Assembly: GCA_017619675.1 (NCBI GenBank)
Contig: JAFZRX010000005.1
Span: 1 to 64,000, forward strand
DNA length: 64,000 nucleotides
Direction of reading: 5' to 3'
DNA from: Bacteroidales bacterium
GTDB taxonomy: Bacteria; Bacteroidota; Bacteroidia; Bacteroidales; UBA932
Position numbers and translations under genes: made by a program
The notes under the pieces: model-generated
What the model was told of the DNA's origin: nothing
The model's database searches: none
The model's input: only the letters and a program-made list of their open reading frames with translations
Shown here: positions 56,126 to 63,056 of the stretch, one piece after another
Position numbering within the stretch: the first letter of the stretch is position 1
Layout: each line of letters starts with the position of its first letter

Positions 56126-56199
56126 GGTGCGTTGGCCGAGTGGCTAGGCGCAGGTCTGCAAAACCTGTCACAGTGGTTCGATTCCGCTACGCACCTCCA
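56126..56199 (+). tRNA. tRNA-Cys (anticodon GCA)
   Basis: A complete tRNA: acceptor GGTGCGT/ACGCACC, U discriminator as expected for cysteine, and CCA encoded at 56197-56199. The anticodon stem CAGGT/ACCTG holds CTGCAAA, giving GCA. The T arm reads GGTTCGATTCC. Its 3' strand is also part of the long terminator stem that follows. Confidence 0.96.
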
Positions 56200-56246
56200 A
56201 CTGAAAAGAGCTCGACATCCGTCGGGCTCTTTTCAGTTGGAGGTGC
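56191..56246 (+). terminator. Terminator stem continuous with the tRNA 3' end
   Basis: Arms 56191-56216 and 56221-56246 are 26 bases long and complementary but for one G-T pair, with a four-base ATCC loop. The inner part (GAGCTCGAC/GTCGGGCTC then TTTTC) looks like an intrinsic terminator. The outer part pairs with the last nine bases of the mature tRNA, including CCA. Confidence 0.75.
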
Positions 56247-56320: not shown

Positions 56321-56429
56321 CGTGGAGCGTAACTGCTTGATAGTCAATGAAAAGATGGTTTCAATGGTAGTGATTTTGGGTACCATTGAAATGCTTATTT
56401 TATTGATTTACAGATACATACGCTCCACG
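56321..56429. repeat. REP-like palindrome D (diverged family)
   Basis: An imperfect palindrome of 109 bases. Ends CGTGGAGCGTA and TACGCTCCACG are perfect complements; the centre TTTCAATGGTA/TACCATTGAAA is another perfect 11-bp pair; the sequence between matches in part. The ends resemble elements A-C (CGTGGAG, then GTAACT, then TTGATnGTCA), but the core has TTTCAATGGTA in place of their TTTAACGGTCGCGA. It lies nine bases past the stop codon of the acetyltransferase gene. Confidence 0.8.
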
Positions 56430-60335: not shown

Positions 60336-60444
60336 CCGTGGAGGTAACTTGTTGATGGTCAGCGAGATGGAACTTTTAACGGTCGCGAAATCGCGACCGT
60401 TAAAGTACAGTTCTCGCTGATTCCCAGCCACTTACCCCCACGGG
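60336..60444. repeat. REP-like palindrome A
   Basis: A 109-base imperfect palindrome with ends CCGTGGAGGTAA and TTACCCCCACGG, an inner GCGAGA/TCTCGC pair and a perfect core TTTAACGGTCGCGA-AA-TCGCGACCGTTAAA. It is almost identical to the reverse complement of element B. It begins nine bases past the stop codon of the truncated TolB-like gene. Confidence 0.9.
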
Positions 60445-60452
60445 CGCCTCTG

Positions 60453-60815
60453 TTAGAAGGAGGCGTTGCGGAGGTAGAGGGCGCTTTCGCGGAGGCCTAT
60501 CCACTTCATGTCCGTGGTGATGACGTGGTCGTTGTTGCAGGCGTTGATGTCGCCGGTGGGGATTTCGATCAGGTCCGTAGAGCCGTCCGGGGCAATCTTA
60601 TATAACTTTCCGTCTTTGTTTATTACCAGCCATTTACCGTCCGGGGTCCAGTTGGGGGCTTCGATAACAAATGGGAACTCCTTTACCACCCGATAGGTCC
60701 TGGTAGGAATGTCATAGACTTCTAGGAAACTGTGTTCGGGGTTGGGATGCTGCGCCTGGGCTGTCAGGCTCAGGGCAAGCAATAATGCGGCGGGGAGAAG
60801 GGAAATGCGGTTCAT
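60453..60815 (-). pseudogene. Truncated TolB-like beta-propeller protein
   Basis: A 120-residue exported protein (signal peptide to about residue 21, AQA-QH; start at the second methionine, one base after the upstream stop codon). It has 'IEAPNWTPDGKWLVINKDGKLYKIAPDG' in part, a TolB/WD40-like blade, and ends soon after 'NNDHVITTDMKWIG'. Members I know of are about 290 residues, so more than half is missing, including most blades. The coding frame breaks off close to palindrome A. It is probably a remnant, though a short functional product is possible. Confidence 0.65.
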
Positions 60816-60816
60816 A

Positions 60817-61758
60817 TCAAGAATTGTCAGTCTTTGAATCATGCCTTGAGTAAATGCGGGCGACTATCGCGCCGCTGATGTTGTGCCAGACGCTGAAGAC
60901 GGCGCCGGGGATGGTAGCCATGGGGAGGGCGGCGAAGTGGAGCGTGGCCAGCGAGGAGGCCAGGCCGCTGTTCTGCATGCCCACCTCCACGCTGATGGCG
61001 CGACGCTTTGCCGGCGTCAGTTTCAGGAGGTATCCTATGAGATAGCCTATTGCCAGGCCGCAGACGTTATGGAGCATTACAACCAGGACTATGATCAGTC
61101 CGCCGGAAAGCAGTTTGCCTGCATTGGCGGCCATTACTATCATGACTATCAGGCAGATGGCTATGGTGGAGAGCGCAGGGAGGTAGCTGGTGGCGTGCTC
61201 GGTGGCCTTGGGCCACAGCCGCTTCACCAGCAGACCCAGCGCGATTGGCAGTATGACCACCCAAAGGATGCTCAGCAGCATTCCCGGAACGTTTACGTCA
61301 ACGGTCTGCCCGGCGAAGAGCCATACCAGCAGCGGGGTCAGCACCGGGGCCAGGATGGTGGACGTGGCCGTCATCCCCACGGATAAGGCCAGGTCCCCCC
61401 TGGCCAGGTAGGTGATGACGTTGGATGCCGTTCCGCCGGGGCAGCATCCTACCAGGATGACGCCCACGGCCAACGCCGCATCCAGCGAGAATATCCGCGT
61501 AAGGGCGAAAGCCAGCAGCGGCATCACCGTGAACTGCGCCAGGCAGCCGATGAGCACGTCCCTGGGGCGGCTGAACACCACGCGGAAATCATCCGTCTTC
61601 AGCGTCAGACCCATCCCGAACATGATCACCCCAAGCAGCGGATTGATCAGCGTGGTCTTCATCCGCCCCACCGCCTCCGGCCACAGCAGCGCCGCCACCG
61701 CCGACAGCAGCACCAGCACTCCCATATAGTCCGAAATCCACTTACACAACCGTTTCAT
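60817..61758 (-). CDS. Bile acid:sodium symporter family transporter
   Basis: A 313-residue inner-membrane protein of the BASS/SBF family, with nine to ten helices. 'GVIMFGMGLTLKTDDFRVVF', 'VGCCPGGTASNVITYLARGDLALSVGMT' in part and 'GMQNSGLASSLATLHF' are conserved and hold the sodium-site residues. Related bacterial proteins move organic anions such as pantoate or 2-keto acids; bile acid itself is not implied. A consensus promoter ends four bases before its ATG. Elements A and B lie on either side of it and the truncated gene. Confidence 0.92.
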   Translation of the reverse strand: MKRLCKWISDYMGVLVLLSAVAALLWPEAVGRMKTTLINPLLGVIMFGMGLTLKTDDFRVVFSRPRDVLIGCLAQFTVMPLLAFALTRIFSLDAALAVGVILVGCCPGGTASNVITYLARGDLALSVGMTATSTILAPVLTPLLVWLFAGQTVDVNVPGMLLSILWVVILPIALGLLVKRLWPKATEHATSYLPALSTIAICLIVMIVMAANAGKLLSGGLIIVLVVMLHNVCGLAIGYLIGYLLKLTPAKRRAISVEVGMQNSGLASSLATLHFAALPMATIPGAVFSVWHNISGAIVARIYSRHDSKTDNS

Positions 61759-61827: not shown

Positions 61828-61941
61828 GGCCCGTGGGGGTAAGTGGCTGGGAATCAGCGAGAACTGTACTTTAACGGTCGCGATTTCGCGACCGTTAAAA
61901 GTTTCATCTCGCTGACCATCAACAAGTTACCTCCACGGGCC
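61828..61941. repeat. REP-like palindrome B, upstream of RAYT
   Basis: A 114-base imperfect palindrome, ends GGCCCGTGG and CCACGGGCC, inner GCGAGA/TCTCGC, core TTTAACGGTCGCGA-TT-TCGCGACCGTTAAA. It has the same orientation as element C and the opposite of A. It lies 90 bases before the RAYT start codon. Confidence 0.92.
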
Positions 61942-61973
61942 TTAAATTAAACGTGTAATTTCAAGGGGATACG

Positions 61974-62003
61974 TTCAACGGAACGCCTATTCTGATATCT
62001 TTG
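61974..62003 (+). promoter_or_regulatory. Promoter of the RAYT gene
   Basis: TTC (61974-61976), 19 bases, then TATCTTTG (61996-62003). The -7 element is perfect; the -33 differs by one base. A GAGGAAGG at 62021-62028 just before the ATG at 62032 is an unusually good Shine-Dalgarno site for this phylum. Confidence 0.6.
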
Positions 62004-62031
62004 TTTTCAGTAATCAAAGTGAGGAAGGGCG

Positions 62032-62964
62032 ATGAGTAAGGATTACAGAAACTATCTCCCCGGTCAGGCACATCATGTGTATTGTAAGGCAGTCAACGGA
62101 TACGTTATCTTCTATTCCTCGAGGGACTGTATTTACTTCTTGACTCTGTATTATCATCTTGCCAGGCGCTATGGTATAGTTACCAGGGCAGTCTCCATTA
62201 TGCCTAATCACGTACATTCAAACCAGCAGGCTCTATCGGAAGAATCGTTCATGAATTTCAACCGGGACCTGACCAGGGATTTCGCCCGTGAGTACAATAA
62301 GGAGCATAGAAGGAAGGGGAGACTGTTCCTTAAACCGTTCGGCTTCGCGCCTAAAACAGTTGGAAAGAAAATCAGGGATAATATCTCATATATCGTCAAT
62401 AATCCTGTGGCCGGGAAACTGTCCGGAACTATTGACGGATACAGGTGGAACCTAATGGCCTACAGGAATAGTAACCATCCCTTTTCTGAAAAGATAGTTC
62501 TTAGAAAAGCTTCCATGGGGCTTCGCCGGTCCCTTGCCCTCCTACAATATTTCTATGATAACGGCATCCCCCTGGATTATAACCGCCTGAGATTCTTGTT
62601 CAAAGGACTTGGTTCCAAGGAAACGGCACAATTGACAGACAGAATCATATCAATGCACAATTTCCTGGACTATGATGCTGTTGCGGAATATTACCAAGGA
62701 GACATCGAGAACGCCGTAGTGTCAATCAGCCTCAATTCCGGAAGTGAGCATGACATTCCGGAAGACTATGAGGATTACAGCAAATACAAGATGATGCTGC
62801 AGAAGACTAAAGCTTCAGGAATAGATCTCAAACAGTGCAATTTTGAGACGATGCCGGCGGATCATCTGGCCCGATTGGCAGAAATCTTCAGCAGTGCCGG
62901 GATTCCCATCAAACAGATCCGGAAATTCCTCCACCTAAAAATGGAAGACCGTGGAGGTAAGTGA
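62032..62964 (+). CDS. REP-associated tyrosine transposase (RAYT)
   Basis: A 310-residue Y1/HUH transposase. The HUH motif is 'MPNHVH' (His60, His62). The likely catalytic tyrosine is Tyr120 in 'NISYIVNNPVAGKL', matching the YI..NP motif of this family. 'LPGQAHHVYCKAVNGYVIF' is the usual N terminus. RAYTs nick and move single-stranded REP hairpins. This one has a C-terminal extension of about 150 residues, a type I recall from other Bacteroidota. It has its own promoter and a Shine-Dalgarno site. Its last five sense codons and stop codon lie inside palindrome C, so the C terminus is repeat-encoded. Confidence 0.88.
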   Translation: MSKDYRNYLPGQAHHVYCKAVNGYVIFYSSRDCIYFLTLYYHLARRYGIVTRAVSIMPNHVHSNQQALSEESFMNFNRDLTRDFAREYNKEHRRKGRLFLKPFGFAPKTVGKKIRDNISYIVNNPVAGKLSGTIDGYRWNLMAYRNSNHPFSEKIVLRKASMGLRRSLALLQYFYDNGIPLDYNRLRFLFKGLGSKETAQLTDRIISMHNFLDYDAVAEYYQGDIENAVVSISLNSGSEHDIPEDYEDYSKYKMMLQKTKASGIDLKQCNFETMPADHLARLAEIFSSAGIPIKQIRKFLHLKMEDRGGK

Positions 62965-63056
62965 TTGGAAGTCAGCGAGAAAGGTACTTTAACGGTCGCG
63001 ATTTCGCGACCGTTAAAAGTTCTATCTCGCTTACCCTCAGTGGGTTACCTCCACGG
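62949..63056. repeat. REP-like palindrome C, overlapping the RAYT 3' end
   Basis: A 108-base imperfect palindrome with ends CCGTGGAGGTAA and TTACCTCCACGG, inner GCGAGA/TCTCGC and the same perfect core as B. It begins 16 bases before the end of the RAYT frame. Same orientation as B, so the gene is flanked by direct copies. Confidence 0.92.

Follow-up and report, generated by a model that had tools for sequence, protein, structure and literature searches.

A probable lineage-specific REP–RAYT-like system with giant palindromes in a Bacteroidales genome

Enzymes of the HUH superfamily cut single-stranded, hairpin-forming REPs beside a foot motif and can join strands, as the available text of two reports describes (PMC6006769, PMC8266576). 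The window, by which we mean the whole stretch of 64,000 nucleotides analysed here, ends with a RAYT-like gene between palindromes of 106 bp, whereas REP elements measure 20–40 bp. The locus raises the question of whether gene and palindromes form a REP–RAYT system, as a sequence-only reading had proposed, or an arrangement of another kind. The features concerned are as follows.

56321..56429 (+), another palindrome of this superfamily, 109 bp long, placed loosely in class I
60337..60442 (−), palindrome A (class I, 106 bp), inverted relative to B
60453-60842 and 60817-61758 (−), two ORFs between A and B
61832..61937 (+), palindrome B (class I, 106 bp), on the upstream side of the RAYT
61996..62003 (+), TATCTTTG box upstream of the RAYT, putative promoter element
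62032..62964 (+), RAYT-like HUH/Y1 endonuclease gene, 310 aa, with His60/His62 and with Tyr120 in YIVNNP
62950..63055 (+), palindrome C (class I, 106 bp), on the downstream side of the RAYT

The order at the window end is A (minus), two minus-strand ORFs, B, the RAYT-like gene and C; the ORF at 60817-61758 presumably encodes a BASS-type transporter. With the limits of B and C trimmed to their symmetric extent, A, B and C are each exactly 106 bp, position i standing opposite position 107-i, which confirms the ~110-bp palindromes said to bracket the RAYT. Their reported common orientation is borne out despite the near-symmetry of the element, B and C being 86% identical in the same orientation vs 76% in the opposite one, and their ends, GCGAGA pair and core are as that reading described. 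The third copy, A, lies outside the range it covered (61828..63056) and is 98% identical to B at a distance within 1.5 kb. C starts inside the RAYT gene, which takes its last codons, stop included, from the foot of C, CGTGGAGGTAAGTGA. The overlap of the 109-bp palindrome with coding sequence is limited to the end of a short ORF. At 56191-56246, 75 bp before it, there is also a near-perfect 56-bp inverted repeat (GCACCTCCAACTGAAAAGAGC...).

The HUH and tyrosine motifs attributed to the protein hold up, since H60, H62, Y120, N123 and N124 are invariant in an alignment of 50 homologs, and the reported extension of ~150 residues is real (~145 extra residues compared with the 165 codons of E. coli rayT). 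The window protein scores 17.1 bits with Pfam Y1_Tnp, under the curated cut-off of 23, and 30.4 bits with the NCBIfam REP transposase model (NF047646), where the curated cut-off of 80 is not reached; on 14 control genomes NF047646 gave matches in 8, only 1 of which had a match above the cut-off. Y1_Tnp matches 46 of 50 subfamily members, and further Pfam families each match one member at most, so that the C-terminal ~150 residues show no recurrent Pfam family among the 50 searched. This part gave only weak PHROG matches to entries of unknown function (E 0.05). Against solved structures, a profile of 50 relatives matched the 2xm3 transposase (E=0.0015) and TnpArep 4er8 (E=0.066) over the core region only, with no clear relative beyond the core. 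We take 2xm3 to be ISDra2 TnpA. A helix-turn-helix in the C-terminal part is only a guess. The octamer TATCTTTG, which we take to resemble the Bacteroidetes −7 promoter box (consensus TAnnTTTG), also lies upstream of both RAYT paralogs on contig C6.

To count the palindrome we used two models, R1 built from 10 copies and the broader R2 built from 48 palindromes of many genomes, partly from RAYT loci under test. Together they locate it 30 times in the genome (E<=0.01), one further 41-bp match being left out. The element is far above chance, with 30 copies here and none found by R2 (E<=0.001) in five of 10 RAYT-less genomes of the same genus. Clustering of the 30 copies at 0.75 gave five groups, which make four classes.

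Class I, 17 copies, among them A, B and C and three loosely placed ones; flanks the window RAYT
Class II, 8 copies, one of them directly upstream of the broken RAYT C6:108439
Class III, 2 single palindromes counted as a class, with a CTGGCAG foot; flank the intact RAYT C6:122354
Class IV, 3 copies; no RAYT seen

Three of the four classes thus lie beside one of three RAYT paralogs (one broken), and another class II copy stands 577 bp downstream of the broken gene, past a small ORF. The two relatives of the window RAYT are 56–60% identical to it, four further RAYT-like genes are distant, and near-identical RAYT copies are absent from the genome. R2 gave no matches near the four distant genes (two on C15, one each on C4 and C16), where the palindrome finder saw a weak 110-bp and a 105-bp inverted repeat, of a different architecture, in two. 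The broken paralog (C6:108439-109328; L024:1940-2829) is split in two ORFs, and its relative L233 has one ORF there.

Most copies of the palindrome (22/30) overlap no ORF of >=70 aa, and the other 8 overlap short ORFs, the RAYT end or, once, the edge of a 265-aa ORF. The palindromes are therefore multi-copy and mainly extragenic, as REPs are, and the original idea, against which a genome with few other copies would have counted, survives on the whole, with 30. No target-site consensus was seen by eye in the palindrome flanks. Six pairs of palindromes lie 28–287 bp apart, each joining a class I copy to one of class II or IV, on contigs C17, C14, C4 and C10 (loci L029, L030, L031, L034, L035 and L056). 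Contig C17, 4.5% of the genome, carries 8 of the 30 copies (Poisson p ~9e-5, assuming independent copies, which the pairs are not).

Across the genus, a RAYT homolog was found at E<=1e-10 in 89 of 151 genomes, and we compared 92 RAYT loci, 3 of this genome and 89 drawn from the longer homolog list. A simple ungapped palindrome scan caught only one of the three window copies, so a gapped, unbiased finder was used instead. It detected a palindrome of 85–150 bp within 400 bp at 68 of the 92 loci (48 upstream, 48 downstream, 28 both) and none within that distance at 24. Near RAYTs there were 97 palindromes in 73,244 bases (1.32/kb) vs 16 in 154,867 further away (0.10/kb), a density ~13 times higher. 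With R2 at E<=0.01, at least 89 of the 92 loci had a match among the 300 of 324 matches listed, as counted by eye and not always within 400 bp. The unit is stereotyped, consisting of a palindrome, ~70 bp, the RAYT and a palindrome at the stop codon. The gene is flanked by its own palindrome family, as is expected of a RAYT.

The two palindromes of a locus resemble each other. In 20 of 24 two-sided loci the own partner was the best match (ranks 2, 3, 3 and 15 in the others), and partner similarity averaged 0.448, a value that 10,000 permutations never approached beyond 0.239. The similarity of palindromes also grows with that of their RAYTs (Pearson 0.33, Mantel p=0.0002, n=59), a growth limited to close RAYTs, with no trend among distant ones (Spearman 0.08). 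The nearest relative of the window RAYT, L234 (70%), has a GTGGAG foot and an AACGGT core like those of class I; L233 (58%), which occupies the locus of the broken C6:108439 copy, has a class II-like foot and core; and L230 (65%) has the GTGGAGTG foot type in common, but not the core. Among 27 dispersed palindromes from other genomes, hand-picked from fetched loci (2 of 29 queries were dropped as they had no reference), 12 found their best RAYT-adjacent match in their own genome out of 46 genomes (permutation p=1e-4) and 15 found it elsewhere; one query, L103, lies only 1.4 kb from its RAYT. The RAYTs L232, L235 and L236 occupy one locus in different genomes, and the foot is GTGGCAGC in L232 and GTGGTCAC in L235 and L236, which looks like rewriting of the site in situ.

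We consider it roughly 80% probable that the locus belongs to a lineage-specific REP–RAYT-like system with giant 'double-foot' REPs, in which each RAYT has its own palindrome class. The RAYT would act on single strands as a HUH endonuclease, recognising palindromes of ~106–109 bp from its own class, which would fold as hairpins when single-stranded, for example on the lagging strand. Cutting and rejoining at the foot by the RAYT would, over time, have seeded copies into intergenic sites.

The anatomy of the palindrome suggests how such recognition might be organised. Its length is nearly fixed at 106–109 bp, and 48 palindromes show covariation of 0.500 vs 0.206±0.009 when shuffled and 0.11–0.165 when slid. 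In 47 ungapped palindromes, foot positions 1-6 and core positions 40-46 are 85–100% paired while varying. Conserved boxes are AA at 10-11, YTGA at 16-19 and TCAR at 23-26, and positions 12-15 and 20-21 are paired in at most about half. Class I has the GTGG foot, as do roughly half or more of the 48 palindromes, and other feet among them are CTGG, CTGTT, GTCGA, GCAGC and the like. We propose that recognition would be modular, with conserved surfaces of the protein reading the boxes common to the subfamily (AA beside the foot, YTGA..TCAR in mid-stem and unpaired patches at fixed positions). What identifies each RAYT would lie in the outer foot (1-6) and the core hairpin (about 40-46), both of which would be rewritten as palindromes as the enzyme diverges. 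Chance or terminator hairpins are ruled out by the near-fixed length, the family structure and the proximity to RAYTs.

In the 10 copies of this genome alone, covariation was not above shuffles; their boxes stay symmetric although pairing as such is not kept, a pattern expected of a double-stranded binding site or of copies in decay. Such symmetric conservation would suit host or regulatory sites, acting as double-stranded protein-binding sites or transcript hairpins, with the RAYT adjacent by chance or as a secondary user, and so would the 22 copies clear of ORFs and the persistence of palindromes in one genome, G030, where no RAYT was found. We regard this explanation as highly improbable, given the ~13-fold enrichment at RAYTs, the matching of own partners and the five RAYT-less genomes with no palindrome, and because a host site is not expected to change sequence with each RAYT.

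Presence of the palindromes largely follows presence of the enzyme. Of the 151 genomes of the genus, 46 were positive for palindromes with R1, and a RAYT was present in 42 of these vs 47 of the 105 negatives (Fisher p=2.7e-8). For R2 we chose 40 near-complete genomes, counting both strands and scoring at most 98 candidates. All 30 RAYT-positive genomes had 8–97 matches, and the 10 RAYT-negative ones had 0, 0, 0, 0, 0, 2, 5, 18, 21 and 92 (Mann–Whitney p=1.2e-4, or 3.2e-4 once 10 of the 30 that may have supplied model sequences are removed); because the genomes in these association tests share ancestry, the p-values make them look more independent than they are. Equal abundance in genomes that lack the RAYT would have spoken against the system. 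Five such genomes had none and two had few, but G039, G093 and G030 had 21, 18 and 92. A profile search of the 10 and two more genomes found no RAYT in 5 of 12, including G030, and weak matches in the other 7, nearly all to the N-terminal core (one G001 ORF also matched C-terminally); those in G039 and G093 were only weak, N-terminal and RAYT-like. As G030 is 97% complete and has no subfamily RAYT even by profile, either palindromes can persist after the RAYT is lost or the assembly lacks the gene. The REP–RAYT reading has good support in its cognate palindromes, its dispersed, mostly extragenic copies and its co-occurrence across genomes.

The subfamily has a narrow distribution. Its profile at E<=1e-20 matched 44 of 199 genomes of the family and 6 of 25 genera, one of which, g11, is matched by the N-terminal core alone. 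In an order-wide sample of 247 genomes from 173 genera, a subfamily match (E<=1e-30) was seen in this genome only, and none in the other Bacteroidales families sampled. Among 30 loci found by name, 26 come from Bacteroidales/Bacteroidia MAGs, many from rumen or gut samples, and the remaining 4 are core matches only (24–28%). RAYT loci in other genera of the family had an R2 match (E<=0.05) in 17 of 17 cases, and other RAYT-like loci had a weak one in 1 of 22. A gut-type Bacteroidales appears to carry an unusual version of a known spreader of DNA repeats.

Comparison of related genomes bears on whether the whole block moves. With 1.2–1.5 kb of flanks compared, the similarity of ~85% between L128 and L136, from different genomes, is confined to the block, its limits being the downstream foot on one side and a point within the upstream palindrome on the other, and in L063/L066 it ends at the palindromes, as judged by eye. 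These sequence comparisons may represent two cases in which a whole palindrome–RAYT–palindrome block has moved. Along with the stereotyped unit, they favour an autonomous IS200/IS605-like or TIRtron-like transposon, of which solo palindromes would be leftover ends or MITE-like derivatives; IS200/IS605 elements likewise have hairpins close to either end, and their Y1 HUH core is matched by profile. Identical multi-copy transposase genes, however, are not found, the nearest relatives in the genome being the diverged paralogs already described, and solo palindromes outnumber such RAYTs, with 30 places vs three. Moreover, several RAYTs stand at one locus in two or three genomes (L232/L235/L236, L242/L243/L135, L240/L251, L015/L233), and the solo palindrome C7:263190 is at the same place in G283, another species. 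We therefore consider a transposon unlikely. In G285 the C7:263190 locus has no palindrome, but a neighbouring stretch is missing too, and no clean empty site was seen there, as G130 and G001 have no match but their right side is not conserved. Adjoining the orthologous palindrome in G283 is an 86-bp near-perfect hairpin (L261:1411-1496), which was not found at the C7:263190 site here.

TIRtrons (TIRYT; De Nocera et al. 2013, PMC3733652), which carry a GGGGWSAS motif, also have a RAYT-like gene between long inverted or self-complementary repeats that form moderate repeat families. The available text on TIRtrons describes neither an architecture common to many enzymes nor coevolution with them. 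A more specific version of the REP–RAYT-like system, which we advance tentatively and would not yet favour, is that a RAYT subfamily of a few genera of one Bacteroidales family uses a rigid ~106-bp, three-zone palindrome as a modular code, in which the boxes are constant and each enzyme rewrites foot and core as palindromes, with both strands as substrates and with spread as unit and as solo palindrome. Both strands would be substrates because both palindrome ends carry the foot. If this were true, unit moves and the spread of solo palindromes would bring the life styles of REP, TIRtron and IS200 together in one system.

Among described systems, the closest is REP/RAYT (TnpAREP), class 2 of TnpAY1 in Quentin et al. 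2018 (PMC6006769). According to the available text of that report, the likeness lies in an enzyme with HUH and Y...NP motifs, few divergent paralogs, an own family of flanking and dispersed palindromes and GTGG at the foot of the commonest palindrome type. The differences lie in the ~106–109 bp with three paired zones, vs a search template with stems of 7–20 plus 1–10 pairs, in a foot that is not always GT[AG]G, and in a protein that is 310 aa long and conserved in its C-terminal part. Bacteroidetes RAYTs with neighbouring REP-like structures have been reported before, and we compared subclass 2.4 and subclass 2.6, the 'atypical' structures of Bacteroidetes, by their published description (PMC6006769). 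Subclass 2.4, 'double foot', has GT[AG]G...C[TC]AC ends, YIxNNP, W-Q and a REP inserted inside the gene. Here GTGG...CCAC ends are found in class I alone among the classes, YIVNNP fits and the host is likewise a member of the Bacteroidetes, but the motif is W-N (W139-N140) and the 310 aa contrast with medians of 194 aa (2.4) and 179 aa (2.6). To call the system a less-studied type was accordingly fair, although double-foot REPs and atypical Bacteroidetes structures are already in print (PMC6006769).

A literature search of titles and abstract openings found no Bacteroidales report of this palindrome, and the near-fixed length, the three-zone design and the enzyme-by-enzyme rewriting over 70–90 loci are not described in the available text of PMC6006769 and PMC3733652. 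RAYT–palindrome recognition and joint change of site and enzyme have been studied in vitro with three enzyme/REP pairs, in the text available (PMC8266576). Here some 70–90 enzyme/palindrome loci of one genus allow constant and variable zones to be distinguished by eye, a natural data set for the recognition code, for single-strand nickases and for REP-like repeats as domesticated or parasitic elements. The system also suggests that large REP families can escape searches that rely on short GT[AG]G hairpins.

Finally, we considered whether the system is still active, as the sequence-only reading had allowed. Seven dispersed class I copies found by BLAST are 70–77% identical to B, the remaining dispersed ones are detectable only with models, and only A and C are close, so the dispersed copies are old or were made from variants, and present activity is only a possibility. 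The divergence, the broken RAYT at C6:108439 and the palindrome position common to another species would all suit decayed, inactive relics of an old spread whose mobility has been lost, an outcome compatible with the REP–RAYT-like system that we think improbable, though less so than a transposon. Against it stand the near-identity of A and B within 1.5 kb, the catalytic residues invariant in 50 sequences, and purifying selection, with dN/dS of 0.09–0.21 in six close RAYT pairs of related genomes and of 0.04–0.22 when the two halves of the protein are taken separately, so that both are constrained.
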